A stretch of 64,000 bases of DNA from a virus, in IMG/VR virus record IMGVR_UViG_3300042345_000469, positions 1 through 64,000 of that record. One strand, given 5' to 3'. The position numbers and the translations under genes are program-made. Below, piece by piece: positions 4,562-39,655 of the stretch. Numbering within the stretch: position 1 is the first letter of the stretch; each line of letters begins with the position of its first letter. Below the pieces are notes generated by a model. The model saw nothing but the letters and a program-made list of their open reading frames with translations, did not search any database and was not told the DNA's origin.

Positions 4562-4717
4562 TTATCTCTTTCTTTTAAACTTACAAACCTTCTTTCCAGG
4601 AAGCATAGCATATGTAGTGGTTTTTCCATAACATTTTGGTTTTGGTGGCATAACACCATATCCAAAATCACCTTTCATTTCTTTAATTATAGATACAAAT
4701 TCCTGAAAAGTTTTCAT
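4562..4717 (-). CDS. Small basic protein with T4-like capsid-targeting N-terminus, 51 aa
   Basis: 51 residues. The first eight, MKTFQEFV, closely resemble the capsid-targeting sequence of T4 internal proteins (MKTYQEFI as I recall it), which directs proteins into the prohead core and is cut off by the gp21 protease. The remainder is short, basic and contains two Cys, ending KFKRKR. A possible gp21 site is after IKE at residue 13. Inferred to be packaged in the head and delivered with DNA; the role after delivery is unknown. It follows hsp20 by 13 bases, has a possible late promoter over the hsp20 stop, and is ended by a strong hairpin. Confidence 0.7.
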   Translation of the reverse strand: MKTFQEFVSIIKEMKGDFGYGVMPPKPKCYGKTTTYAMLPGKKVCKFKRKR

Positions 4718-6956: not shown

Positions 6957-7344
6957 TCAATTTCTCCATAATCATTTCATACTTTTCTCGGCGTCTATTT
7001 CCAAGATAAGGTGCCATCAATTCAGTCCATCTTTTTGCTGCCTCACCCTGAAGACTAATATGATAGCAAGGTTTTTGTCCTGCTGCTTTGTGAACTGGTC
7101 CACCATCACTCCAAGTAATTTTTCTACCATCCATTATAACAGCAACTCGTTCCATAATATCTTGATCAGTCATAGACATCTTCATAACAAGGTAATCTTT
7201 TTCAGTATAAATTTTTCCATTAGGAAAAATTCTCGTTCTACCTTTTTTGTAAGACCAAGACCCCTCACCTTCCCATATACCAGTAACCCAAGCAAGTTCT
7301 GTTTCTGTTGGTTCTCTATGCTCGTAGATAGTGCCTTTAGCCAT
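6946..7344 (-). CDS. LAGLIDADG-like small protein next to dam
   Basis: 132 residues. Near the N-terminus it has AWVTGIWEGEGSW, which fits the LAGLIDADG core pattern (L-A-G-I-x-D-G/E-G-x-F form) with the acidic residue and glycine in place. This is a single motif, so if a nuclease it would work as a dimer. The rest is a mix of strands and helices with WTELMAPYLGNRRREKY, as in single-motif homing enzymes. Start ATG at 7344; the AGGAG ribosome site upstream lies inside a long hairpin. Could also be a derived, non-nuclease DNA-binding member. It overlaps dam by 11 bases, forming a two-gene unit inside the clamp-loader operon. Confidence 0.7.
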   Translation of the reverse strand: MAKGTIYEHREPTETELAWVTGIWEGEGSWSYKKGRTRIFPNGKIYTEKDYLVMKMSMTDQDIMERVAVIMDGRKITWSDGGPVHKAAGQKPCYHISLQGEAAKRWTELMAPYLGNRRREKYEMIMEKLNAN

Positions 7345-7350
7345 AACTTT

Positions 7351-7388
7351 TAAACTACTCCTTTACTAAATAGTAGTGGAGTAGTTTA
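7351..7388 (-). promoter_or_regulatory. Hairpin hiding the ribosome site of the LAGLIDADG-like gene
   Basis: Perfect 11-bp inverted repeat TAAACTACTCC/GGAGTAGTTTA (7351-7361 with 7378-7388), with an inner ACTA/TAGT pairing. The gp44 stop codon lies in one arm and the AGGAG ribosome site of the gene starting at 7344 in the other. There is no T-run after it on the minus strand, so a terminator role is unlikely and ribosome-site masking is preferred. Confidence 0.6.
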
Positions 7389-8330
7389 ACGAAATTCACA
7401 TTCACACATAAGTTCTGTTAATGCTGCTAGGAGGTTAATTTCTTGGTCAGCCACGAACGCACATTGGTATTGATACTTAGCAATAACAAGAACGGCAGCA
7501 GGGATAGATGAGGGAACAAGGTGATCAAAAGCGGCGTCATAAACCCTGCGAAGTAGATGAGAAGCGTCGTTGTCCAAGTTACTGACCACCCACTTTCGGA
7601 CTTCAGGAAAGTTTTTATCTTTGAGAGATTTGACAAGTTCATTTACAGAAACGTCTGAGAAAGATGCAAGAATGCCCGCGTCGATTTTTCCTCCTGCAGA
7701 ATATCTTTGACATTCGTTGAGAACACGCCTGAAATCAGGAAAGTGCTTTGATACAAGTTCTGCAAGGACTTTTTGATCGTATTCAATCTTTTCCGAATCC
7801 AAGATTGATTGAAGTCGTTGAAAGAAACTTCCCGCAAGTTGCACTCGTTGCTTTCCTTTGATTGTGAAATCGATAACTGCGCATCGAGAGTGAAGAGGTT
7901 CAATGATTTTGTTTTTGTAGTTGCAGGTGAAGATGAATCGGCAGTTGTTATAAAATGCCTCAATATTCGCTCGTAGTAGGAGTTGAACATCATTACCGGT
8001 ATTGTCTGCCTCATCGATGATGATGACTTTGTGTTTAGAAGATCCCGTAAGTGAGACGGTCGAAGCGAAGTTCTTTGCTTGATTCCGTACAGTATCCAGG
8101 AAACGTCCTTCGTCGGATCCGTTGATGACATAAAAATCTGCTCCCAACTCATTACACAATGCTTTTGCAATGGTAGTTTTACCAATACCAGGAGGACCTG
8201 CAAGAAGAAGGTTCGGAATCTCTCCTTTCTCTACAAACTCCTTAAATGTTTTTTTAGTTTCATCAGGAAGAATACAGTCATCAATTACTTGAGGACGATA
8301 TTTTTCCACAAAAAGAAATTCACTTGTCAT
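7386..8330 (-). CDS. 44: gp44 clamp-loader large subunit (AAA+ ATPase)
   Basis: AAA+ ATPase subunit of the clamp loader; four copies with one gp62 drive gp45 loading. 314 residues, close to T4 (319). Walker A GPPGIGKT is at 45-52, Walker B VIIIDEAD at 102-109, sensor/SRC arginine-finger motif LHSRC at 146-150, then the C-terminal collar helices. N-terminus begins FLFVEKYRPQVIDDCI, the usual clamp-loader opening. It follows the 170-residue unknown gene by three bases. Translational coupling of 44 to 62 known from T4 cannot occur directly here because two genes separate them. Confidence 0.97.
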   Translation of the reverse strand: MTSEFLFVEKYRPQVIDDCILPDETKKTFKEFVEKGEIPNLLLAGPPGIGKTTIAKALCNELGADFYVINGSDEGRFLDTVRNQAKNFASTVSLTGSSKHKVIIIDEADNTGNDVQLLLRANIEAFYNNCRFIFTCNYKNKIIEPLHSRCAVIDFTIKGKQRVQLAGSFFQRLQSILDSEKIEYDQKVLAELVSKHFPDFRRVLNECQRYSAGGKIDAGILASFSDVSVNELVKSLKDKNFPEVRKWVVSNLDNDASHLLRRVYDAAFDHLVPSSIPAAVLVIAKYQYQCAFVADQEINLLAALTELMCECEFR

Positions 8331-8333
8331 AAT

Positions 8334-8846
8334 TTAGACCCAATCAGGTTTGCGTTCAGGCATACGGAGGTAATTATCAGACACCCAAGGCTTGGATGCA
8401 ATATACCTCTTGTATGCTTCAAATGTATCAATAGTGTCGTCAAACTTCCATTCCTCAGGCATAGCACGAGCAAATGGAGTCACTTCTGTAATCTTGCCCC
8501 TGGGAAACAAATAGTATGCATCCACAAGAGTTTTATAACAGGAGTGAGTTTTATTATACCGCAGGCAGTATTCATCAGACAAGTTCAATCCCCACTTGAT
8601 TAACCAGTAGGCATTATGGATGCTCTCCAGTGCCCACTTGGTGCAGGGATGATTGCGGAATGCTCCTTTCTCGGTCTTGTAGGGAGTTCCATCTGCCTTA
8701 GGGAGAGTGCCGTATCCGTGTCCCCACTTTTCTGATGCCACGATCGAAAGCATTTGACAACACTCTAGTGGCATCTTAACGATGTGCTTATCGGGGAGGC
8801 AAATGGCACTCTCAGCAGGGAATGGATTTGTAACGAAAATGTTCAT
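8334..8846 (-). CDS. Conserved unknown protein between clamp and loader, 170 aa
   Basis: 170 residues from the ATG at 8846 (MNIFVTNPFP); the A of this ATG is the last base of the gp45 stop (TGATG). The N-terminal part reads DKHIVKMPLECCQMLSIVA, a pattern I recall from phage proteins of the pyrimidine-dimer glycosylase-like or unknown class with a conserved DKHxVKM segment. Further conserved-looking blocks are NHPCTKWALES and the Trp-rich helix NAYWLIKWGLNL. The position between gp45 and gp44 inside the replisome operon suggests a DNA transaction role, an inference. A glycosylase function is possible but unproven from sequence alone. Confidence 0.75.
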   Translation of the reverse strand: MNIFVTNPFPAESAICLPDKHIVKMPLECCQMLSIVASEKWGHGYGTLPKADGTPYKTEKGAFRNHPCTKWALESIHNAYWLIKWGLNLSDEYCLRYNKTHSCYKTLVDAYYLFPRGKITEVTPFARAMPEEWKFDDTIDTFEAYKRYIASKPWVSDNYLRMPERKPDWV

Positions 8847-9511
8847 CAACCAAATGTAGAATCAGGTTCCATAGCAATATGATACACGACATCAAATCCA
8901 GTATTCTTAAATCGTGACAGAAGTTTACTTGAAATTACTACCTCATAGTTTCCAGGAAGGATCTTAATATTTTCTACTTTGAAGTTAAAAGTAAAAACTT
9001 CATCAGTTTCACCCACAACTACAGAAAAGTCATTGGAAGTATCATTCTTCTTATCACGAACCACCAGTTTCACCACACCTGCTTCACCAACCACAGACAG
9101 GTCAGGAAGTTGATAAACAGCAGCAGCCTTAAGCAGTTTATCAAGTTCTTTGGTATCAAGAAGGAAACAAACGTCTTCAGAAGGAAGAACAATATCTTTA
9201 TCTGGAGGAGTAACAATTACATTAGGATCAGCAAAGAAATATTTGGAACGTGATTTACCTTCTTTAATAACCACATAACTATCGTTTTGAAAATCAAGTT
9301 CTGCATTTTTATGCAGATTCAATCCATTCAAAAACTGGTTCAAATCATAGATTCCAAAATCTTTGGGAATTTCCTCTTCAATCTTCGCCTCTGCAAGGAT
9401 GTTCTTCATTACAGAAATAGTTTTCAGACAATTTCCCTCCTTAAAAAGAATTGATTGATTAATTGAAGAAAAATTCTTTAGAAGTGTAAGAGTTTTATCA
9501 GAGAGTTTCAT
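8846..9511 (-). CDS. 45: gp45 sliding clamp
   Basis: Trimeric sliding clamp, processivity factor of the polymerase and, in T4, the activator that tracks along DNA to late promoters with gp55. 221 residues from the ATG at 9511, T4 228. The N-terminus MKLSDKTLTLLKNFSSINQ parallels T4 closely, IYDLNQFL matches the T4 IYDLNGFL, and the end reads AMEPDSTFG. A 21-base near-duplicate of the 5' end gives an alternative in-frame ATG at 9532 (seven extra residues) and a TTG at 9538. The T4 alignment favours 9511; no clear ribosome site decides it. Confidence 0.95.
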   Translation of the reverse strand: MKLSDKTLTLLKNFSSINQSILFKEGNCLKTISVMKNILAEAKIEEEIPKDFGIYDLNQFLNGLNLHKNAELDFQNDSYVVIKEGKSRSKYFFADPNVIVTPPDKDIVLPSEDVCFLLDTKELDKLLKAAAVYQLPDLSVVGEAGVVKLVVRDKKNDTSNDFSVVVGETDEVFTFNFKVENIKILPGNYEVVISSKLLSRFKNTGFDVVYHIAMEPDSTFG

Positions 9512-22865: not shown

Positions 22866-24302
22866 TCACATGAGATTTTTCACAGCAACACGTCTGTAAT
22901 AACGGTTCTGGTTGGTCTGAAGACGGCCAAGACCCTGATTGGTTCCTTCTGCAAATGGGTTAGCAACAAGACCATAACGGGTCTTAAAGCCAATCTTAGG
23001 CTGGAAGGAGTTCTCACCAACGGCACGAACCATTTGGAGAGGAACATAAGGACAATAGAAGAGTCCAGCGTCATAAGGTGAAGAACCCTTATAACCAACA
23101 ACATAGTACTGGTTGCCTGGAGTTCCGTTTGCGGAAGTTAGGTTAGCAGAATATGGGTCGATGTAGACGCGGAATTTGCCCATCAGAGTACCAGCAAAAG
23201 TATTGCCAGTATCATCAACGTTCAGGTTAGCGTTGAGTGCTGGGGTGTAATCGAGAACACCAGCCATGGTCAGTGCTGAAGCAACGTCAGCAGAGCACAT
23301 GATGATGTTGCCCTTTCCACGACGAGTTCTCTGAGCGATTGCGTTAGCATCACGCTCAATCTGGAACAGAAGACCCTTGAACTTCTCAACAGACCAACGA
23401 CCATTGGAGTCGATGTCTAGGTCGAAAATACCAGGAGTTGCAACGTTTTGTACAGCACCTTGCTCAGCAACCTTATAGATGGTTCTGATAACTTCGCGGT
23501 TGATCTCGGCAAGAATCTCAGTTGAGAGAATGTTTGCGAGTTCCGCTTCAGCATTCAGACCATGGATTGCCTTAAGGTCTTGAGCAAGCTCAAGTGAGTA
23601 CTCAGCCTTCAGTGCGCGTGACTTTGCAGTAACAGTAACTTTCTCGATCGAGAAAGCCATCTGGTTGAATGCATCATTCGCAGAACCGTCAAGGTTCTCT
23701 GCATCACCGGTGACCATTCCTTGGCCTACATTATATCCAAGTGATGAACCAGTTCCAACTGGGTTTAATACGCTTGGATTGCTACCCGATTGAGTGGTAG
23801 TACCCATACCAACGTTGGCATCGGTAAATCCAGCAGATTCGTCAAATCCATAATCCTGACCAGAGAATGCACTATCAGCTTCATTATAGAAGGCTTCACT
23901 TCTTGCGCCTTCTTTGTAGTACTGAGAACGCATTGCAAAGATGAGTCCAGTAGGACCACTCATTGGTTGAACGCCAGCGAGGTCATAAGCGACCAGGTTA
24001 GGCATTGAACGTCTGATCAGTGAGATCAGAACGGGATCGAAACCAGCGTTAGGACCAGCAGCAAGACCAGCACCACCACCGAAACCACCACCAGCACCAG
24101 CAGCGTTAGCTGACATGGTTGGTGATTCCATTAAGTTGGATAGATTTCCAGCTTGGAATGACTGCTCTTCTCTTAAAAATCTTTCTTGGTTTTCTAGCAG
24201 GACAGCGGTTACAGCCTTACGATGCGAATCTTTGATTGGATCAAGACCCTCATAGTTGAGGAGAGGTGCCCACTTTTCCTGCAGATGCTCGGAATGGAAC
24301 AT
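22866..24302 (-). CDS. 23: gp23 major capsid protein
   Basis: Precursor of the major head protein, HK97-fold. 478 residues (T4 521). The N-terminal delta region of about 59 residues is helical; LME at 57-59 followed by Ser60 fits the gp21 cleavage rule (L/I-x-E then a small residue), so mature protein likely starts at S60. A Gly/Ala-rich linker follows (GGFGGGAGLAAG), then ISLIRRSMPNLVAYDLAGVQPM, a hallmark of gp23, and the C-terminal domain with GFKTRYGLVANP. Ribosome site AAAGG is present before the ATG at 24302. No late octamer lies directly upstream; it is probably read from the gp22 promoter. Confidence 0.98.
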   Translation of the reverse strand: MFHSEHLQEKWAPLLNYEGLDPIKDSHRKAVTAVLLENQERFLREEQSFQAGNLSNLMESPTMSANAAGAGGGFGGGAGLAAGPNAGFDPVLISLIRRSMPNLVAYDLAGVQPMSGPTGLIFAMRSQYYKEGARSEAFYNEADSAFSGQDYGFDESAGFTDANVGMGTTTQSGSNPSVLNPVGTGSSLGYNVGQGMVTGDAENLDGSANDAFNQMAFSIEKVTVTAKSRALKAEYSLELAQDLKAIHGLNAEAELANILSTEILAEINREVIRTIYKVAEQGAVQNVATPGIFDLDIDSNGRWSVEKFKGLLFQIERDANAIAQRTRRGKGNIIMCSADVASALTMAGVLDYTPALNANLNVDDTGNTFAGTLMGKFRVYIDPYSANLTSANGTPGNQYYVVGYKGSSPYDAGLFYCPYVPLQMVRAVGENSFQPKIGFKTRYGLVANPFAEGTNQGLGRLQTNQNRYYRRVAVKNLM

Positions 24303-25566: not shown

Positions 25567-26214
25567 TTACAATGAGTTTAAAAACTCATTGAATAGACTC
25601 AGTTTATATTGTTCTAGAATACCTTTGTCTACATATATATTGATTTTTTTCTCAAAGTTAGCAACTTTTTGCTCTAGAACTCCATTATTCCATATCCATT
25701 CAACACCTTCCATGATTCCCTGAACAAAAGCATCAGGTGCAGAAGGATCTGCTACAATATCAGCAGCAGTTGCGAGCATAAAATCTTCGCCGACTTCTTT
25801 GTATCCTTTGCTGTTTTCTCTTAGTGATCCAATACCACGAGAAGAAACGCCAAGACATACTCCATCTTTGAGTAGAGATTCTGCAATCTTACCCATAGGA
25901 GTTGAAAGAATTTGTGCTTTGCCGATGAAATTGTTACCTTCACGACATAGTTCAACAATCTTGTGAGAAACTCTATCAAGGTTTACGGTTGGACCATCTG
26001 GGTGTCCAAGTTCACCTAAAGCACGTCCTTTTTGAACGTACTGTTCGGTATAACGCTGCACTTCTCTTTCCATAATGGACATGGGATACATACGTCCATT
26101 GCGATTTACGCATTCTGCTTGTAGGAATGGACCTTTAATATAAAGTTTTTGATTTTTTCCAGTTCCTTCTTTAAGAACTTCTACCTTTTCGATTTCTTCC
26201 GTAATGAGTTTCAT
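25567..26214 (-). CDS. 21: gp21 prohead core protease
   Basis: Serine protease that cuts gp23, scaffold and internal proteins at L/I-x-E sites during maturation. 215 residues (T4 212). N-terminal FLQAECVNRNGRMYP is the family signature; the catalytic His is in GELGHPDGP and the catalytic Ser in LGVSSRGIG. Start ATG at 26214 overlaps the upstream gene's stop. Its targets here plausibly include gp23 at LME/S60 and the tagged protein at 28177 (ISE/S). Confidence 0.95.
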   Translation of the reverse strand: MKLITEEIEKVEVLKEGTGKNQKLYIKGPFLQAECVNRNGRMYPMSIMEREVQRYTEQYVQKGRALGELGHPDGPTVNLDRVSHKIVELCREGNNFIGKAQILSTPMGKIAESLLKDGVCLGVSSRGIGSLRENSKGYKEVGEDFMLATAADIVADPSAPDAFVQGIMEGVEWIWNNGVLEQKVANFEKKINIYVDKGILEQYKLSLFNEFLNSL

Positions 26215-28176: not shown

Positions 28177-28497
28177 TCAATCAATCCATTCTAACTTTGA
28201 TGGGTGGTATCTTTGTACGTTTTTAATGTTAAAGTTTTTTTCCATCACTGGATAAATTTGATGAACAACTGCTCCTGGATAATCAGATTGCAGTTGCTCA
28301 CCTAGTTCTCTTGGAGAAGGAACTCCAGTTTTAGTGACTAACTCTAAACGATATAGACTTCCTTGCCACATAACATCAGCAACATATCCTTCGCCGACTT
28401 GTTGTGGTTGTTCTGGTTGAGCACCAATATAAAGATTTCCTGTGAAATCGCCAGCAATATTAACTGATTCTGAGATAAATTGCTTGAAAGATTTCAT
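28177..28497 (-). CDS. Capsid-tagged small protein, 106 aa
   Basis: 106 residues from the ATG at 28497, chosen because it gives MKSFKQFISE as N-terminus, a close match to the T4 capsid-targeting sequence, and follows the ribosome site AGAGGAA. The longer frame from 28518 overlaps the upstream gene. ISE then Ser (residues 8-11) fits the gp21 cleavage rule exactly. The C-terminal domain (about 42-95) has VMWQGSLYRLELV, then PRELGEQLQSDYPGAVVHQ. The same domain occurs within the 613-residue mosaic protein (residues about 445-492). Inferred to be packaged in the head; function unknown. Confidence 0.78.
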   Translation of the reverse strand: MKSFKQFISESVNIAGDFTGNLYIGAQPEQPQQVGEGYVADVMWQGSLYRLELVTKTGVPSPRELGEQLQSDYPGAVVHQIYPVMEKNFNIKNVQRYHPSKLEWID

Positions 28498-31071: not shown

Positions 31072-33258
31072 TTAAACTCTACCAGCAACTTCTTCAAAAC
31101 TTATGCCAGTACGTGTGGCTACAAAAGTCAGTGTAACGTAGTTAATTGATTTAGTTGGTTTGAGGAAGATGTCTGCCCTAAACTCATTATTGTCAATTAC
31201 ATCTGGAGTGTTATTTGTCTCATCACATACAACTAAGAAATCAAAAAGACCTCTCTTTGCCTGAACATCACGGAGATATGGTTCAACAATATTTACGAAG
31301 TTTGATCTGGTGACTTGATCATTAAGTTCAAACAGTTGTGCTTGAGATGCTCTTTCGAGTGCCTGTTCTACTGTTAGGAACAGTCTGCGAACATTAATGC
31401 GATCAAATGCTGATGCATAAGCAAGTGCAGTCTTGTCGCCGAATAGATAAATGCCAATTCCAGGTTGACTAATAATTGCATTAACTCTTGAGGTATAGAG
31501 TAAATCTCTTTGTGGTTTAGATGGATTATATGCAAGTTTAATTGCATTGTTGAGAACACCTCTTTGCTGTCCAGCGGGTGAGTACCATGGGAAAGAGTTA
31601 ATGTTTGTTCTCATCATCAAACCTGCAATATCAGCATTGCAAGGAATATATCTAAAGAGATTATTGAATCTATCGTAGGTGTACTTATACCCACTATCAA
31701 AAACTGTATACGATGAAGATGACAATGCACTGAAGAATCTAATGACGTTGGTTGTCTGAGTAGTTGTATTTGTTAGGTCAACTACATTTGCTCGGTGTGG
31801 AGAAACAACAGCAATACAGTCCTTTCTGCCTTCTGCAATAGAAATCAACTTATTTGCTTTTGCTTGCGACTCAGATTCTTCAGAAAGTCCAGGTCCATTA
31901 ATTAAGAAATCAACTTGAATTTCATCCTTATTTGCAAATAGATCATATGCCGTCGAAAGACTACCAAGAGTAGCAGTCATTCCGCCATTTGCAGAATAAT
32001 CAACACCACCCCCTAAAGTGTAGCTTACGTTTCCAATTGCACTATAAGTTATATTCTGTGCATTTTGTCCCCATAGACCTTCACCAGTTGTATACTTGGT
32101 ATAAGATGCGGAGAATCCTGTTGGAACTGGAACTGTTCCCCAAACGGAATCATTTGCAAGTGATGGATTATATCCAGCATAAATGTTGTTGGAGAAATCT
32201 GCAAGATAGTTCTTGTACCAGATTTTTTGTGGAGAATTGACTGAGGATACTGCATCTGCTGCTTTTGAAAGACTCAGATGCTTTTCAAGAATATTTCCTT
32301 GAACACCAGTAATAGATCCCTTGTCGTCAATAACTACAACGTGAAGTGCATCATTTTTACCATTTCTCTGAGCTGCATAGTTATTAGAGATTGGTTTGGG
32401 TGCAATTGACTTCCAGAAAATAACCGAATTTGTTAATCCGAGTGTCTGTTGATCGTACCAATCTACTATAGTAACTGCTGATGCAGATGAACCTGTATTA
32501 ATTCCAGAGTTGTTTACGAATGTTAGTGAGTCAGTCGCTTCAAAGGAAGCAACTCCATTTCCTTGAGCATAAGTGATGCTTGTCTCAGTTCCTGCTGCAG
32601 AAACTCTAGATAGAATTTTAACATCAATTATGCTATTACCGTTTGTAGCATCAGTTGACACTCCAGTAATAATACCTTTCAAATAACCATTGAATGTTGA
32701 AGTTGATCCTGCACCCGGCAAAACAGCATTGGTGATTGCGGCGGTGACGCCATATCCAACAACTGCTCCAAGAGTTGAAAGATTGGTTGTAGAAACTCCA
32801 ATTCTTTGGTCAGCTAAATCATCGATAACACAAACTTTCAGACCATTTGCCCAAGAACCTGGAGTTTTTGCTGCAAATGTGAAATTAGTTGCAGTAGAAT
32901 ATGATGAGTTATAGTTTTCGTAGTTCTTGATTTTTAGCGAAGTAGTAGAAGCGATGCCAACACCCGCATTTGCGGTGTTTAGTGAGCTTCCATCAACTCT
33001 TACTACTTTTAATACGCCACCATATGAAAGATATGATGATGCACTCATCCAATACTCATATTGAGCATCGGTTGAAATTGGTCTTCCGAAAACGTTAATT
33101 AAATCTTGCTCGGTAGTAATATCAATCGCCTGTTCAATAGGACCAATTGCAAAAGGACCCGCAATTGCTCCAATATTATCTAAAACATTATCAGCTCTCC
33201 CGACAGTTAAATCAACCTCTCTGACGAGTACGCCTGGAGATAATTGAGGAGTCGCCAT
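31072..33258 (-). CDS. 18: gp18 contractile tail sheath protein
   Basis: Contractile sheath subunit. 728 residues (T4 659). N-terminus LSPGVLVREVDLTVGRADN is the sheath signature, followed by FGRPISTDAQYEYWMSAS, an inserted variable region, and the conserved C-terminal portion ending YVTLTFVATRTGISFEEVAG, which packs on the tube. Ribosome site CGGAG eight bases upstream of the ATG, part of a long inverted repeat (33268-33317) with a late promoter inside its loop. Confidence 0.97.
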   Translation of the reverse strand: MATPQLSPGVLVREVDLTVGRADNVLDNIGAIAGPFAIGPIEQAIDITTEQDLINVFGRPISTDAQYEYWMSASSYLSYGGVLKVVRVDGSSLNTANAGVGIASTTSLKIKNYENYNSSYSTATNFTFAAKTPGSWANGLKVCVIDDLADQRIGVSTTNLSTLGAVVGYGVTAAITNAVLPGAGSTSTFNGYLKGIITGVSTDATNGNSIIDVKILSRVSAAGTETSITYAQGNGVASFEATDSLTFVNNSGINTGSSASAVTIVDWYDQQTLGLTNSVIFWKSIAPKPISNNYAAQRNGKNDALHVVVIDDKGSITGVQGNILEKHLSLSKAADAVSSVNSPQKIWYKNYLADFSNNIYAGYNPSLANDSVWGTVPVPTGFSASYTKYTTGEGLWGQNAQNITYSAIGNVSYTLGGGVDYSANGGMTATLGSLSTAYDLFANKDEIQVDFLINGPGLSEESESQAKANKLISIAEGRKDCIAVVSPHRANVVDLTNTTTQTTNVIRFFSALSSSSYTVFDSGYKYTYDRFNNLFRYIPCNADIAGLMMRTNINSFPWYSPAGQQRGVLNNAIKLAYNPSKPQRDLLYTSRVNAIISQPGIGIYLFGDKTALAYASAFDRINVRRLFLTVEQALERASQAQLFELNDQVTRSNFVNIVEPYLRDVQAKRGLFDFLVVCDETNNTPDVIDNNEFRADIFLKPTKSINYVTLTFVATRTGISFEEVAGRV

Positions 33259-33343: not shown

Positions 33344-33574
33344 TTACCAGTCTGGATACTCCCATTTATCAAAAACTTTTGTTGTCATCCTATTACAAAC
33401 TATTCTTTTTATAGAACATTCTTTACACTCATATGAGTATGAGGATAAAACCGGACCTTTATCCTTTCTTGTTCTGTAAAAGTTTTCAATTAAGTTTTTG
33501 ATTTCTCCACATTTTCTACATCTTCTATCTGTAAGCAATAAATGTCCTAGTTTGATTTGTTTATCTAAATCCAT
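33344..33574 (-). CDS. Small zinc-finger protein after the terminase gene, 76 aa
   Basis: 76 residues from the ATG at 33574, which overlaps the gp17 stop by one base (TGATG). Two Cys pairs, CRKCGE and CKECSI, about 30 residues apart, with a basic Phe/Tyr/Arg stretch between them (FYRTRKDKG), make a zinc ribbon of the type found at the N-terminus of HNH nucleases. No HNH catalytic part follows, so it is either a remnant of a homing enzyme or a small DNA-binding protein serving packaging. Compare CKKC and CVNC at the start of the nuclease at 18263, which has the same type of N-terminal finger. Confidence 0.7.
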   Translation of the reverse strand: MDLDKQIKLGHLLLTDRRCRKCGEIKNLIENFYRTRKDKGPVLSSYSYECKECSIKRIVCNRMTTKVFDKWEYPDW

Positions 33575-35223
33575 CACATATATTCCCACATGTAAGATCT
33601 ATCGCCATATTCATCTACAAACCACCTGTCACCATCAGCATCAATAAAACTACCTTCATTTAATCCATCAGAAACAAAACCAAATGGTGCCATATCTTGT
33701 TCTATTTGATTTTTTTGTTCCTCATATAATCTTTTTCTAACATCCTGATCTGTAAGTTCTTTAAAATAGTCTTGTGCAACTAACCATGCATAGATCACCA
33801 AGCACATTGCCAAGTCATCATTGCATCCTTCTTCAGCTTCAAATGAATTGTGTTTCTGGATGAATGTTGTAAGTTCTGCAATGATTTCATAGTCATTTAA
33901 AAACAACTTGTTCTCTTCAATCATTGTTTTTAAGTTTAGACATCCAACCTTTTTAACAGTTTTAGACATCTTTACACCAAGTTGAGTTTTCTTTCCAGAA
34001 AATCCTTGACCCACAATTTGACCTGCTCTACCTCTCATAGAACACATGAGTAAATTATTATATTCCAAATCATATTGAAGAATGGATGCTACTTGATCAC
34101 CCACGTCGTTTACCTCACATAAAACATAAGAATCATTATAACTTTTTGCAACCTCATGAATAATGCTTGGAAAAAGCATTGGTTTGATTTCGTTGTTTCT
34201 ATATTTTGCAACGACTTTATGTGGAAACTGCGTTATGTCCACAACAGTAAATGCTGAGTAGTCGTTTCCAACGCCTCTAGCAACGTCTACAGTGATTAAA
34301 TAGTCGTGATTCTCAATTGGATCCTCATAGACATCTAAACCTGCGCTACGTGTCTTGGGATGGTCATACACGAGTGTTCTGAGTTTAGATGGTGCAATGA
34401 GTGTATCAACAGAACCTAAGAATTCGCATTCAAACTCAACCTTAAATTGTTGATCTGACGTATTCGCAATCGTTTGCTTTTTCCACTCTTCGTCACGACC
34501 AGGAACTTCACTCCAATGAACATCGGTAAAAACATATTCATTTTTTCCTTTCTCAGCATCATGCCACATTCGGTAGAAATGATTCATACCGTGTGGAGTA
34601 GAGACTATAATAACTTTTGTTTGTTTACCTGATGTAATAGTAGGATAAACAGATGCAAAGAAAGAGTCTGCAATATGATTTGGAACGAACGCAAATTCGT
34701 CCAAGAATAGAATGTTGAATGACATTCCTCGGACAGCAGATGCAGATGTTGATGCTGCTAAAATCTTAGAACCATTCTCAAGTTCAAGCGATCCTTTATT
34801 CCAGGAGATAATACCTTGCTGCATCCACTTCGGTAGATTCTCATAAGCAGTCTGTAACCTATCCAGGAGCTCCCTGGCTGTTGCTGCTTTGTTTGCTAGG
34901 ATACCTATATTAACATTGTCATTAAAGACTGCATAATGGAGCAGGAAAGATACAACAGTGGTTGATTTTCCAGTCTGCCGTGGCATCTTGCAGATATTAA
35001 ATCTATGCTTATGGAAGTTATTAATTAACTTCTCTTGGAAATCATATGGTTTGAATGTCTGTAAACCATGATCTAGAGTAACAATTTTTACATAATTATT
35101 GGCAAAATAAACAGGGTCATTCATGCACTTGACAATCTCAAGAACCTGTTCTTCTGTAAATTCGTGAGTAGTGTTTGCCTTTTTTAATAAAGGATTACCA
35201 AGATATACATCATTATTTGGCAT
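33574..35223 (-). CDS. 17: gp17 terminase large subunit
   Basis: DNA packaging motor and headful nuclease. 549 residues (T4 610). The ATPase has Walker A MPRQTGKST near 85 and Walker B NILFLDEFAF near 180, then the coupling segment VSTPHGMNHFYRMWHDA. The nuclease domain carries VDVARGVGNDYSAF with the metal-binding Asp near 310, and CNDDLAMCLVIYAW near 485 with further acids. Continuous, with no intron or insertion. Sixteen bases separate it from the mosaic gene upstream. Confidence 0.98.
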   Translation of the reverse strand: MPNNDVYLGNPLLKKANTTHEFTEEQVLEIVKCMNDPVYFANNYVKIVTLDHGLQTFKPYDFQEKLINNFHKHRFNICKMPRQTGKSTTVVSFLLHYAVFNDNVNIGILANKAATARELLDRLQTAYENLPKWMQQGIISWNKGSLELENGSKILAASTSASAVRGMSFNILFLDEFAFVPNHIADSFFASVYPTITSGKQTKVIIVSTPHGMNHFYRMWHDAEKGKNEYVFTDVHWSEVPGRDEEWKKQTIANTSDQQFKVEFECEFLGSVDTLIAPSKLRTLVYDHPKTRSAGLDVYEDPIENHDYLITVDVARGVGNDYSAFTVVDITQFPHKVVAKYRNNEIKPMLFPSIIHEVAKSYNDSYVLCEVNDVGDQVASILQYDLEYNNLLMCSMRGRAGQIVGQGFSGKKTQLGVKMSKTVKKVGCLNLKTMIEENKLFLNDYEIIAELTTFIQKHNSFEAEEGCNDDLAMCLVIYAWLVAQDYFKELTDQDVRKRLYEEQKNQIEQDMAPFGFVSDGLNEGSFIDADGDRWFVDEYGDRSYMWEYM

Positions 35224-35239
35224 AATAAAGACCTATTGA

Positions 35240-37081
35240 TTAGTTACAATTCCAACGTTTACGTGCTGCCTTACCTCTTTCTCCAGTCCAACTTCTAGAA
35301 CGATTACAGAAATCTCTTCTCCTTTTCCAGTCTGCCGAACCTGGTTTTAATTCTGAAGGAGGTGTGGTAACGGCAGTTTTGAGTTTTGAACCTGGATTTT
35401 CACGACGATATGCTTTAACTGCAGCAGAACTCAAACCATCAGTTCTATCTTGACGATTGACTTTCTGCCAATCTTCATCAACCTCAACTTCTTCACCCAT
35501 CATTCCCATAGGTTTTACATAATTTTTATTTGAACCTAGTTTAGCAGAACTTCCACCTTGAGGACCAAATGTTTGAATCAATGGTTGTCCTGGTTGAATT
35601 TCAGAAACTGAATGATAAACAACTATTGATCCGGGATAAACTTTTTGAAGTTCGGCATTAATTTCTTTACGAGTTGGAAGTTTTACTTGAGGAAAAAACA
35701 TTCTAAGTGAATAATATTTTCCTCTCCAATTTAAAGTAACTGCAATTACGTTTCCAGTTTGTGCCTGAAGTCTTGTCGCCTCATCTACTTGAGATTTAAA
35801 TCCTTTAATTGGTTCGGGTTTAATAATATCAACAACTTCTGCAAATGCATTTCCATTTGCATCTTCAATAGTAACATTTTCTGATTTTACGCAAGAACCC
35901 TTTTCAAATTTAGTAGTTCCTTTTTTTCTTTTATATCCAGTCCAACATTTTTCATCAAGAATTTCTTTAGTAATTTTATCTACTAATTTTTCTTCTCTTA
36001 TTTTTGGAAGTTTTGCACCTGTCGGTTTTGGATCTTTTCCTGGCGGATATGTTGGATTTCCTCCACCAAGTCCAGATTTTGGTTTTAATTTTGGTTCTTT
36101 AGAAACACTTTCGTCCATTTCTCCACTCGCAACATAGTCTGCTGCAGTATCAATATAGTCTGCAGCTTTGGTAATTTTTGATTGAACCCATGCTTCAAGA
36201 TCTCCTTCACCCTTTCCTACCTTCATCTGAAGTCTCTTTACGGCATCGGCAATAGTTTTTAGTTCAGATCTTGCCATTGAATATTCATGATCTTTGATGG
36301 AAACTTTATCCCATGCTTTTCCACCATAAGAACATTCAGATCTAGTTTCTCTTTTGTCGCATAATGGACAATATCTTTGCTCTTCAGTTGCTTCTGATTT
36401 AATTCCCCAGTTATCTGCACCAACTTTACGGCACTTGACCAATGCTCCCGACGCATATGCACTTGGCCAAACGCTATACCTTGACTTTACTTTGTGATAA
36501 CAAACATCTTTTTTACCACTACCTTTACCTGGTTTGTCTTTGACTTCTTGCAAATCCATTTCCTCTTTCCTTGTTTTTCTATCTGTTCTTACCATAGTTG
36601 GTTTAGCGGCGCTAGATTTTTGCGGTTGATTTGGATCTTCTCTTCTTTTTGCTGCTTGTGCGGCAAGTCTTTCTGCTTTACTCATTGAAGCACGTTTTTC
36701 GGATGAAACGCATTTTGGAGTAGCAGTTTCCCCTTCTTCTCTGGCACAAGCATCACCATCTACAACATCAACCCAACCCGGTTTTTTATCTTTTGATTTT
36801 GATTTGCCAAACCAATCACGAAGACCTTCTTCGTTTACATTTACATCCTTAAATTTTTTATGGTGCTTTTTAGCATCTGCTTCCATTTTTTTCAAACGAG
36901 TGTAATAATCTGGAATTTCATCAAGATGCTGGAGAGCAATATACATTGCAAGTTCATGATCTTGAGTGTGCTCATGTTCAATAGGTTCCCCCATATCAAG
37001 CTGCTTTTGTATGAAAGAAACATCAAGACGATGCTTTTTTGCAATTTGCTCAACTGTTTTGTGTGGTTTGATCTTGGGCAT
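35240..37081 (-). CDS. Mosaic of small basic modules, putative internal protein, 613 aa
   Basis: 613 residues, strongly basic, built from short units that I recall as separate small proteins or domains in marine phages and large viruses. In order: DUF5661-like helical unit (about 1-70, HTQDHELAMYIALQHLDEIPD); DUF5872-like unit (about 101-166, WVDVVDGDACAREEGE); CYHKVKSRYSVWPSAYASG unit (about 185-226); zinc-ribbon-like CPLC with Cys250 (238-250); WVQSKITKAADYI helical unit (270-322); CWTGYKRKKG unit (379-397); a domain like the tagged protein at 28177 (about 445-492); and a C-terminal basic Cys unit (555-613, KLKTAVTTPPSELKPGS). Packaging in the head is inferred. DUF names are from memory. 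Confidence 0.75.
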   Translation of the reverse strand: MPKIKPHKTVEQIAKKHRLDVSFIQKQLDMGEPIEHEHTQDHELAMYIALQHLDEIPDYYTRLKKMEADAKKHHKKFKDVNVNEEGLRDWFGKSKSKDKKPGWVDVVDGDACAREEGETATPKCVSSEKRASMSKAERLAAQAAKRREDPNQPQKSSAAKPTMVRTDRKTRKEEMDLQEVKDKPGKGSGKKDVCYHKVKSRYSVWPSAYASGALVKCRKVGADNWGIKSEATEEQRYCPLCDKRETRSECSYGGKAWDKVSIKDHEYSMARSELKTIADAVKRLQMKVGKGEGDLEAWVQSKITKAADYIDTAADYVASGEMDESVSKEPKLKPKSGLGGGNPTYPPGKDPKPTGAKLPKIREEKLVDKITKEILDEKCWTGYKRKKGTTKFEKGSCVKSENVTIEDANGNAFAEVVDIIKPEPIKGFKSQVDEATRLQAQTGNVIAVTLNWRGKYYSLRMFFPQVKLPTRKEINAELQKVYPGSIVVYHSVSEIQPGQPLIQTFGPQGGSSAKLGSNKNYVKPMGMMGEEVEVDEDWQKVNRQDRTDGLSSAAVKAYRRENPGSKLKTAVTTPPSELKPGSADWKRRRDFCNRSRSWTGERGKAARKRWNCN

Positions 37082-37236
37082 TACTCAACTGGGTTTGATT
37101 TAGTCTCTTCACCTTTCGCTCTTTTCCTTCTCGCTGCACAGTGAGCACGTTGAGAAAATCCTTTTGGATTTGAGCAGTCAATACTCTTTTTATATTTATT
37201 ACTCCACTCTTCTTGAAACTGTTTGAAAGTTTTCAT
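37081..37236 (-). CDS. Capsid-tagged small basic protein, 51 aa
   Basis: 51 residues, MKTFKQFQEEW at the start, a match to the T4 capsid-targeting sequence in seven or so of its first eight positions by type. The remainder SIDCSNPKGFSQRAHCAARR and KRAKGEE is basic with two Cys, a unit I recall from other marine phage proteins. The ATG overlaps the stop of the coiled-coil gene (ATGA), and its stop overlaps the start of the mosaic gene (TAATG), so all three are translated in series. The gp21 rule is not clearly met (QEE), so cleavage is uncertain. Inferred head-internal protein. Confidence 0.75.
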   Translation of the reverse strand: MKTFKQFQEEWSNKYKKSIDCSNPKGFSQRAHCAARRKRAKGEETKSNPVE

Positions 37237-39149
37237 ATGGATATTGAGGTCAAAATAACTTTAAAAGTTGTATTATTAGTAGAACTAGGATATGCAAGAA
37301 GTCTTAGTGATCCAGAATTAATATCAGTTGAGAATGTAGCAATTCCAATCGGTTGGTTGATGGTTCCATATTCTGTCATATAAGTTGTAGTTCCATCATG
37401 AATTACATTGATTGATGTCATATTATAATTAGTTCCGTCAGTGATTTGTATTTGATATGTGGCAGATCTGTAAATTGAAGAGTTCAAAGATACTATTGTA
37501 GTTTCTGATATTGAAGTGGTTGTAACAACTCCTGAGGATATAGTTCCGCCATTCAAAACAAAAGAAGTTGCAGTAACTATTCCAACATTCATTCCTAGAG
37601 ATGATGTGTTGCCAAGTAATAGTGTTTGATCTAAAGTCTGAGAACCTCCTCCACCACCTCCACTTCCAGCGTCACCAACCCATTTATCTAAAGATGCATC
37701 ATATTTTAGATAATAGTTATTTGTTTTGGCTGTATTTCTATCAATATCATCAAGAAATTCTAATCGCGTTTCTCCACCACCACCTAAAGTAGAAAGTTGT
37801 TGTTGGATGCGATTGATAAAAAGTTTATAGTGACTTTGAAGATCATCAAGAGTTACAAAATTTTGATCTAATGGAATAAGAGGATCGGTGCTTTCTGTAA
37901 TAACTGGAACTTCTTTAAGTTTTTCTATTTGTTCATAAATATTTTCAATTTCAATAGACCAATCTATTTGTTCCGGAATCTCAATATTATCAACAGATTT
38001 TTGAAGTTGATAAATGTCTTTTTTAATTTTCTCAAGAATGTTATTAAGTTCAGAAATCTCATTATCGTAGTACTTAACTTTTGGAAATTTAGGAACTATC
38101 GGAATCTTATTCTCTACATTTTTTATAGACTCATTTAACTCATTAATTTGTTCATCATAATAGTGAATCTTCGAAAGTCTTGTCTCAACATCTTTAATAG
38201 ATTCTTCTAATTTAAAAATTTCATTCTCATAATAACGAACTTCAGGAAGTTCTGGAATACTAGAACGAACTTCTTCAATAGTGTTAATAATACACTTTAG
38301 TTCATCATCATAATACTTAACTTCTGGAATTTCTGGAATTTTTGGAATAGAAACTCTGACGGATTCAATCTTTTCTTTGAGTTCTAATAATTCATCATCA
38401 TAATACTTAACTTCTGGAATTTCTGGAATTTTTGGAATAGAAACTCTGACGGATTCAATCTTTTCTTTGAGTTCTAATAATTCATCATCATAATACTTAA
38501 CTTCTGGAATTTCAGAAAGTTGTAATTTTAAATCTTCTACTTTTTTATAAAAAGATTCTTTTATTAGATCAATATACTTGTGAGTTTCTTTTGGATCAAG
38601 TATCTCCAACTCATAAAACTTTTCAACATCCTCTACTATTCTACTAATAGCAAGTCTTATCTCTTTATTGTTTCTAACATCAAAATCACGAAGTTTGTTT
38701 AATCTATCATTAATAAATTGTATATCAGATTCGTAATAACGAATATCAAGAGAATCTAATTTTTCAATAATCGATTGAATCTCTCTGTCGTAATATTTTA
38801 CTTCTGGGACCTTTGGAATACTTTTTTTAATCTCTTCAATTACTGTATTTACTTGAGAGATTTCTTTATCATAGTACTTTGGTTCTTTAATGGTCGAAGA
38901 AACCTCTTCAATTCTTTCATGAAGAACCTCAATTGGATCTTTTATTTTTTCTATGAACTCTATTACTTCTTCTATTACTGGTTCAGACTCTTGTTTTGGA
39001 TCTAGAAGATCGCTGGGAGATAAAATTCTTTTAAGTTTTTCTTGTAATTTATTTTCTTCTTTTAATTTTGCCGCAAAAATTTCTTCCTCTTCTTTTTGCC
39101 GAGCACGAAGTTCTATTAATTCTGATGGAGATAGTACTTTTTTTCCCAT
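37233..39149 (-). CDS. Coiled-coil repeat protein with beta C-terminal domain, 638 aa
   Basis: 638 residues from the ATG at 39149; the frame reaches a TTG at 39173 but MGKKVLSPSEL is the more natural start. The first 430 residues are a coiled coil made of about ten degenerate units of roughly 30 residues, each with K/R-YY-D/E-x-E-I/L then a heptad helix and a SIPKIPEI-like turn; two units are identical at DNA level. The C-terminal part (about 455-638) has a Gly run, then VIHDGTTTYMTEYG, a beta module also found three times in the giant protein at 53522. Likely a fibre or whisker-like virion protein. A late promoter lies at 39199-39206. Confidence 0.75.
   Translation of the reverse strand: MGKKVLSPSELIELRARQKEEEEIFAAKLKEENKLQEKLKRILSPSDLLDPKQESEPVIEEVIEFIEKIKDPIEVLHERIEEVSSTIKEPKYYDKEISQVNTVIEEIKKSIPKVPEVKYYDREIQSIIEKLDSLDIRYYESDIQFINDRLNKLRDFDVRNNKEIRLAISRIVEDVEKFYELEILDPKETHKYIDLIKESFYKKVEDLKLQLSEIPEVKYYDDELLELKEKIESVRVSIPKIPEIPEVKYYDDELLELKEKIESVRVSIPKIPEIPEVKYYDDELKCIINTIEEVRSSIPELPEVRYYENEIFKLEESIKDVETRLSKIHYYDEQINELNESIKNVENKIPIVPKFPKVKYYDNEISELNNILEKIKKDIYQLQKSVDNIEIPEQIDWSIEIENIYEQIEKLKEVPVITESTDPLIPLDQNFVTLDDLQSHYKLFINRIQQQLSTLGGGGETRLEFLDDIDRNTAKTNNYYLKYDASLDKWVGDAGSGGGGGGSQTLDQTLLLGNTSSLGMNVGIVTATSFVLNGGTISSGVVTTTSISETTIVSLNSSIYRSATYQIQITDGTNYNMTSINVIHDGTTTYMTEYGTINQPIGIATFSTDINSGSLRLLAYPSSTNNTTFKVILTSISI
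38301..38513. repeat. 90-bp exact tandem repeat within the coiled-coil gene
   Basis: Copies at 38301-38390 and 38391-38480 are identical, with a further 33 identical bases to 38513. Each codes for one 30-residue unit (key motif VKYYDDELLELKEK). Sequence identity at all codon positions points to a recent duplication. Confidence 0.92.
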
Positions 39150-39198
39150 ATTTAAAAGTGATATTTCTCTCAATAACTTCGTACTTTGTATATAAGAG

Positions 39199-39217: not shown

Positions 39218-39655
39218 TCACTGATTTTTTAGATCTTGATTTTTTAATAATTTTGCAAGTTCGGATGTCGATCCAACAAACAATGCATTTGTTACATTTG
39301 TTGGAGATTTTGATGACCTATCCTCTTCAATATCTTTTAACTTCTTTTGAAGATCCATTAGTTTATCTGTTGCGTCAGCAACATTTTTAATTAATTGACC
39401 AGCTACTTCATATGCTCTAGGCATCTCACTTTCTTGAGCCAGTTCCAATATTCCATTAATTGCCTCTTGACCCTTTTCAATTAAAGAGTATAAATTTCCT
39501 CTAGTATATTCATAATCTTTTTTTATTTCATTGCCAATAGTATCTGCTTTTTGAATTTTTTCCTCAATAATTTCGGGACTAGATATAATTTCAACATTTT
39601 CGTCGGAAACATTGAAGGTATCGTTTAGGTCTTTAAATTTCTTTGTCATTTTCAT
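39218..39655 (-). CDS. 16: gp16 terminase small subunit
   Basis: DNA-recognition subunit of the packaging terminase. 145 residues (T4 164), all helical. The core is nearly T4-like: YTRGNLYSLIEKGQEAINGILELAQESEMPRAYEVAGQLI, then KNVADATDKLMDLQKKLKDIEE. N-terminus polar, C-terminus with VGSTSELAKLLKN. Start ATG at 39655 overlaps the gp15 stop (ATGA). In T4, genes 16 and 17 are adjacent; here three genes (coiled-coil, tagged, mosaic) lie between them, an insertion in the packaging operon. Confidence 0.95.
   Translation of the reverse strand: MKMTKKFKDLNDTFNVSDENVEIISSPEIIEEKIQKADTIGNEIKKDYEYTRGNLYSLIEKGQEAINGILELAQESEMPRAYEVAGQLIKNVADATDKLMDLQKKLKDIEEDRSSKSPTNVTNALFVGSTSELAKLLKNQDLKNQ

Follow-up and report, generated by a model that had tools for sequence, protein, structure and literature searches.

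A gene between the two terminase subunits

What is the large protein encoded between the terminase genes of this phage, and does it travel in the head, whole or in pieces? The window, i.e., the whole stretch of 64,000 nucleotides analyzed here, belongs to a 75,995-base record of a T4-like cyanophage in which the late genes examined all lie on the minus strand. The first-pass annotation had placed a 613-residue frame at positions 35240 to 37081, between gp16 and gp17 and coupled to a capsid-tagged gene of 51 residues. The position proved exact (minus strand), both flanks were verified, and the coupling was found as a 1-nt overlap at the start of the frame, kept in 30 of the 38 relatives that have both genes. 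The genes considered below are the following.

22866-24302, minus strand: gp23 major capsid protein, with a predicted maturation site between LME and SPT, read from the sequence and used to calibrate gp21
25567-26214, minus strand: gp21 prohead protease (Peptidase_S77, E = 9e-38)
28177-28497, minus strand: 106-aa tagged protein (starting MKSFKQFISES), a stand-alone D7 unit, phrog_1742
33574-35223, minus strand: gp17 large terminase
35240-37081, minus strand: 613-aa multi-module protein (613-codon ORF with IMG/VR relatives and NR homologues)
37081-37236, minus strand: 51-aa tagged D9 protein (starting MKTFKQFQEE, with SIDCSNPKGFSQRAHCAARRKR), overlapping the start of the 613-aa gene by 1 nt
37233-39173, minus strand: 646-aa fiber-like coiled-coil ORF, flanked by the tagged 51-aa gene and gp16 (phrog_28263 tail fiber, E = 1e-38)
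39218-39655, minus strand: gp16 small terminase

The 646-aa ORF holds multiple, almost identical copies of a PEVKYYDDELLELKEKIESVRVSIPKIPEI-type repeat and shares a few bases with the start of the tagged 51-aa gene.

A scan of IMG/VR detected 420 encoded relatives of the 613-aa protein. The best 80 of these, together with S-SRM01 and the window itself, gave after removal of redundancy a family of 53 sequences, nearly all of them full length, and judged by these homologues the frame is a conserved, real gene rather than a chance ORF. Its best phage matches were S-SRM01, S-SM2 (GC119) and S-T4; homology and the location between gp16 and gp17 place it in the T4-GC119 family of cyanophage virion proteins. 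By the same two measures, the cyanophage proteins known as T4-GC119, PHROG 727 and 3477, or DUF6321-containing are one and the same gene. They have been known so far merely as hypothetical or virion proteins, and we found no account of their shuffled modular anatomy in the searchable literature.

Module anatomy

The protein consists of eight small modules on disordered linkers. The mosaic described from the sequence therefore stands, with eight recognizable units instead of about seven. Eleven module HMMs were used, eight from the units of this protein and three from relatives; the module places listed are those found across loci.

36881-37063, minus strand: module D1, residues 7-67, DUF5661 (Pfam PF18905, match at 11-67, E = 6.8e-13)
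36617-36823, minus strand: module D2, residues 87-155, KSKS/GWV unit (DWFGKSKSKD..GWV..KCVSS.KRASMSKAER; HMM, 214 module places)
36401-36517, minus strand: module D3, residues 189-227, VWPSAYAS unit (CYHKVKSRYSVWPSAYASGALVKCRK; 219 module places)
36296-36376, minus strand: module D4, residues 236-262, CPxC ribbon-like (116 module places)
36116-36292, minus strand: module D5, residues 264-322, helical EAWVQSKITKAADY unit (127 module places)
35885-35950, minus strand: module D6, residues 378-399, CWxGYxxKK...CVK (237 module places)
35567-35755, minus strand: module D7, residues 443-505, W-x-G-x-Y domain common to the tagged protein (hhalign E = 1.9e-6, and models)
35243-35434, minus strand: module D8, residues 550-613, DUF6321 C terminus (Pfam, 8e-6, just under the cutoff)

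The only Pfam domains detected were DUF5661 and, below threshold, DUF6321, the latter in a rare GERGKAARKRWNC version found in 8 of 247 cases. D4 is duplicated upstream in two loci (L008 and L047). Along the 53-sequence family, conserved blocks are parted by variable stretches, the worst of which spans residues 323 to 377. The units had been called mostly basic, which is right for the whole protein (pI 9.4) and for six of the eight units but not for units 1 and 5 and three of the six linkers, which are acidic.

The AlphaFold model, built from 57 sequences, is a chain of small compact units, with helices at 254 to 318 around D5. The stretches with pLDDT of <50 (74-87, 153-192, 323-377, 401-438 and 497-546) match the linkers, parts of D1 and D3 being likewise poorly modeled. 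As the confidence of the model is low overall (pLDDT 54), its global matches serve only as support for module sharing. A search of solved structures by sequence gave no match for this family, and a wider set of proteins matched only in a DUF192 part.

Shuffling of modules at a fixed site

These units are interchangeable parts: their order is permuted among phages at one fixed site, some also exist as stand-alone proteins, and lone D7 and D9 units carry capsid tags. The 11 HMMs, run over approximately 330 fetched loci, identified 373 unit-bearing ORFs with up to 98 architectures (order and composition), an upper figure in which some ORFs are cut by contig ends or lack a weak unit that was missed. 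Neither effect touches the permuted architectures of full-length proteins, such as 1-4-5-6-2-3-7-8 and 1-2-6-5-3-4-7-8, compared to 1-2-3-4-5-6-7-8 for the window type. Among named phages we found 2-6-3-8 in P-SSM2, 10-2-3-6-4-7-8 in S-SCSM1 and 11-5-10-2-3-6-7-8 in S-SM2. D8 was the final module in 228 of the 229 multi-module ORFs that have it. Of the 167 scorable loci, i.e., those whose fetched DNA includes both gp16 and gp17, 165 have the multi-module gene between these two, and in all 167 its strand is the same. The mosaic is more extreme than first seen, with permuted units filling a fixed genomic socket. A hypervariable region between gp16, gp17 and gp18 had been described earlier (PMC3037559).

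Modules within one protein have discordant histories. In a sample of 14,775 protein pairs, 37% had one module at ≥90% identity and another at ≤45%. The discordance was reciprocal for D2/D6, D2/D8 and D6/D8 (for D2/D6, 485 versus 836 cases), so that unequal rates by themselves are not a sufficient explanation. Close relatives show insertion, duplication and fusion of units. The 51-aa unit (D9) is fused N-terminally in S-SRM01 and in loci L151 and L303 and sits mid-protein in L048, and DUF192 was found in 42 of 75 other multi-module proteins. Several units had also been described as occurring by themselves in phages, and in unrelated phages of other hosts this is the case for D3 (a 56-aa protein, gp70 of Roseobacter phage CRP-902, E = 5e-25) and D8 (a 93-aa protein of Pelagibacter phage HTVC024P, E = 2e-30). 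A scan of cellular genomes with D3 to D5 returned one metagenome-assembled contig and nothing else.

In S-SZBM1, two proteins are encoded at the equivalent locus: one of 707 aa, with a SAM lyase domain (E = 6.8e-8), and a tagged one that has DUF6321 at its end. In the former (S-SZBM1_194, at 7253-9376 of locus L339), which occupies the gp16-gp17 site, the SAM lyase domain is C-terminal and the start resembles DUF3008 weakly. A SAM hydrolase is present in the virion list of S-CREM2.

A domain common to D7 and a tagged protein

D7 is a relative of the tagged 106-aa protein (28177-28497), as had been noticed for residues 445 to 492 or so. Aligned by hhalign, the two families match over residues 446-488 of the long and 38-79 of the 106-aa protein (probability 90%, E = 1.9e-6), and the separate AlphaFold models have strand-strand-helix-strand in identical order at 444-494 and 36-83, respectively. 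A Foldseek search with the 613-aa model recovered the S-T4 equivalent of the tagged protein (rank 23, E = 2e-3).

Searches of solved structures with the tagged family gave nothing convincing by sequence and no significant PDB match by Foldseek. The top PDB fold for the tagged model (E = 0.35) was T7 Gp2, an inhibitor of the host RNA polymerase, in its complex with that enzyme, and YkzG also ranked high. These nonsignificant resemblances are a weak lead only.

Capsid tags and possible entry into the head

In the capsid targeting sequence of T4, residues 4 and 7 serve targeting and residues 8 and 10 processing, which D10 blocks (PMC9026906). All 43 tags of stand-alone D7 proteins fit MK[STN][FY]..F[LIM]xE or come close to it (F/Y4, F7, L/I/M8, E10), and that of the window, MKSFKQFISE, matches the four T4 positions. 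In D9 tags, position 4 is F/L/Y and position 7 is F, but position 8 is mostly Q, with D or E at position 10. The window copy, MKTFKQFQEE, matches only the targeting positions, with Q8 where T4 has I/L for processing. For D9, targeting is predicted from the tag and processing is doubtful.

The 613-aa protein itself starts with MPKIKPHKTVEQIAKKH, which does not resemble the propeptide pattern MKxYxxF(I/L)xE, and 248 of 249 multi-module ORFs are likewise untagged, the remaining one having an N-terminal tag. Being coupled to a tagged gene does not target the untagged long protein. Fusion, by which the 51-aa tag could reach proteins of this type, is rejected as a general rule because the natural D9 fusions are without the tag: they begin just past its would-be end, with an in-frame stop codon upstream. 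Our guess is that the long protein may enter the head through contact with a tagged D7 or D9 protein.

Internal tag-like motifs occur 7 times versus 1.1 expected. A motif like YSNWREEL, perhaps a decayed tag, recurs in linkers of many related loci (L151, L303 and L252 among them), with W[RK]x[DE] found 12 times versus 0.5 expected.

Candidate cleavage sites in the linkers

T4 gp21 cuts at L/I-x-E (PMC9026906), and since the predicted gp23 sites are LME in the window, IAE in S-SM2 and LSE in S-SRM01, the strict form seems to hold in these phages. Strict sites are confined to two of the six linkers of the 613-aa protein.

36545-36553, minus strand: LQE179, candidate gp21 site in the D2-D3 linker; 92% of homologues keep a hydrophobic-x-E here and 55% a strict L/I
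35993-36001, minus strand: IRE363, candidate gp21 site in the variable D5-D6 linker; kept in 47%, strict in 6%
35951-35959, minus strand: LDE377, candidate gp21 site directly before D6; kept in 57%, strict in 36%

Further linker sites have V, M or F in the first position (VNE84, MDE324, FAE415, VDE434, MGE530 and VDE536). At positions 84, 179, 415, 434 and 536, hydrophobic-x-E is kept in 92 to 100% of relatives, with strict L/I in at most 55%.

Across 268 nonredundant linkers, [LI]xE occurred 139 times versus 78 after shuffling (1.7-fold) and [LIVMF]xE 304 times versus 165 (1.8-fold), although the linkers are mutually related and z-scores overstate their independence. With a redundancy cut at 25%, the counts were 47 versus 28 and 112 versus 64. 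L/I-x-D and L/I-x-K, used as controls, were not enriched; reversed and shifted patterns (ExPhi and PhixxE, Phi being hydrophobic) were enriched 1.2- to 1.3-fold, indicating some general periodicity. These statistics are suggestive of processing, short of proof. The idea that gp21 cuts the protein into pieces gains from the enrichment and loses from the confinement of strict sites to two linkers, their weak conservation and the missing tag; gp21 processing at the linkers is kept as a good and testable hypothesis whose chances fall slightly on the unfavorable side.

The same data bear on the opposite view, that of a virion protein that is never cut, i.e., a multivalent scaffold that condenses DNA or organizes the core, with the linkers as acidic spacers. 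A long protein without a tag and with so few linkers bearing strict sites would suit such a role, basic Cys-containing units could bind DNA, and one LxE, LDE55, is 100% conserved inside folded D1. The enrichment of L/I-x-E relative to its D and K controls and the tag-like motifs within some linkers speak against an uncut scaffold, which we consider unlikely.

Probable virion association

Association with the virion, which had been proposed, is reported in records for two homologues and is likely by homology for the 613-aa protein. The S-SCSM1 homologue (SSCSM1_29) is labeled “virion protein” in its record. That label is also on NMNAT, which was detected by mass spectrometry according to the S-SCSM1 paper, and neither terminase subunit has it. 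The note attached to the T4-GC119 homologue of S-SM2 and P-SSM2 reads “similar to Synechococcus phage S-SM1 protein.” Over the parts of the records that we read, the same words stand on gp25, gp6, gp13 to gp15, gp18 to gp21, gp23, gp3 and VrlC and not on gp16, gp17, gp22, uvsY, uvsW or gp55. The pattern fits the S-SM1 proteome of 41 proteins (PMC3037559), so we infer from these GenBank notes that the S-SM1 homologue is a virion protein. On the other side, the S-SCSM1 record does not give the virion label to its tagged D7 protein, and the 30 virion proteins listed for S-SZBM1 include none of the unit proteins of this locus.

Being in the virion is not the same as being in the head, and the protein could be a neck, tail or packaging-site accessory made together with the terminase and neck genes. 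Its lack of a tag and its fixed place between gp16 and gp17, beside gp13 to gp15 and the fiber-like ORF, would agree with this. However, the mosaic shares its D7 and D9 units with the tagged proteins beside it, and modules that turn over this fast would be out of keeping with a neck part; we consider an accessory decidedly unlikely. Least probable of all is a regulator or packaging helper that is not part of the virion and simply copurifies, its shuffling reflecting the known gp16, gp17 and gp18 recombination hot spot: the proteome authors do caution about copurification (PMC10665884), the hypervariable region is on record, and the 30-protein virion list of S-SZBM1 has no unit protein of the gp16-gp17 locus, but the protein is reported in two proteomes, from phages of different genera.

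Comparison with known systems and proposed role

The 613-aa protein works like a hybrid of the T4 internal proteins and the polyvalent proteins and, having neither a tag nor polyvalent catalytic domains, is a member of neither class. With IPI, IPII, IPIII and Alt of T4 (PMC9026906), the locus shares a T4-like head program with gp21. The neighbors at 28177 and 37081 share with them tags with targeting aromatics at positions 4 and 7, and the mosaic family shares their status as virion proteins whose role is unknown or host directed. Unlike them, the protein lacks a tag, strings together eight units where they have one, differs in unit order among phages and carries candidate cut sites in the stretches that separate its units. 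Polyvalent proteins of phages and conjugative elements (PMC5512222) likewise have many domains per polypeptide in varying architectures, and their packaging and processing into units has been predicted (PMC5512222); the text of that paper does not mention cyanophages. Variable architecture in a conserved genomic context was found here too (up to 98 architectures at a fixed site). In contrast, Pfam detected none of the typical catalytic domains (ParB, ART, metallopeptidase, etc.) and no pair of enzymatic or effector domains in the 613-aa protein, which has no built-in protease and whose units are 22 to 69 residues long. Multiple cuts at glutamyl sites by a prohead protease, as proposed here, are known from phiKZ and SPN3US head proteins (PMC9026906), although these are trimmed propeptides rather than chains of shuffled units and the phiKZ motif is S/A-x-E.

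Our best reading is that of a fast-evolving virion cargo protein, probably packaged in the head and possibly processed by gp21. Small modules, mostly basic and Cys-containing, would be gained, lost, duplicated and reordered on disordered linkers by recombination at the single gp16-gp17 site, always on the same strand. The protein would enter the prohead, perhaps via D7-D7 or D9 contacts with its tagged neighbors, and gp21 would trim it within the linkers, at L/I-x-E and possibly V/M-x-E sites. Ejected together with the DNA, the fragments might then have early effects on host factors or defenses. Prohead entry, trimming, and ejection with early action are the inferred part of this scheme, and the reading as a whole, in which T4-like cyanophages carry a cargo protein of shuffled domains in their virions, seems to us evenly balanced between right and wrong. 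A stronger version, in which shuffled effector cassettes punctuated by protease sites are released by gp21 in the prohead and each host receives a changing cocktail, is tentative and somewhat unlikely.

Hypothetical proteins from many cyanophages, some of them known from virion proteomes, can now be seen as one object, in which exchangeable units occupy a fixed genomic socket. Should the units come free in the head and be ejected, the locus would be a readable record of the cargo that these phages deliver into Prochlorococcus and Synechococcus. It would also offer a directly testable case in which a phage head protease processes a cargo polyprotein.

Other tag-like starts

Another 51-aa basic, Cys-containing ORF of the window (4565-4717, minus strand) has a capsid-tag-like start (MKTFQEFVSIIKEMKGDFGYG) and no PHROG match. 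In S-SM2, SSM2_108 (31377-31805 of locus L089) has the tag MKTLKQFLKE, followed by TPTNSVGNGGYTSAGGQTVAGYD, the internal tag-like RKTFEEFRESW and then D9. The TPTNSVGNGGYTSAGGQTVAGYD stretch is nearly identical to the one that follows the predicted cleavage site of S-SM2 gp23 (IAE, then QPTNAVGNGGYTSSGGQTVAGFD).
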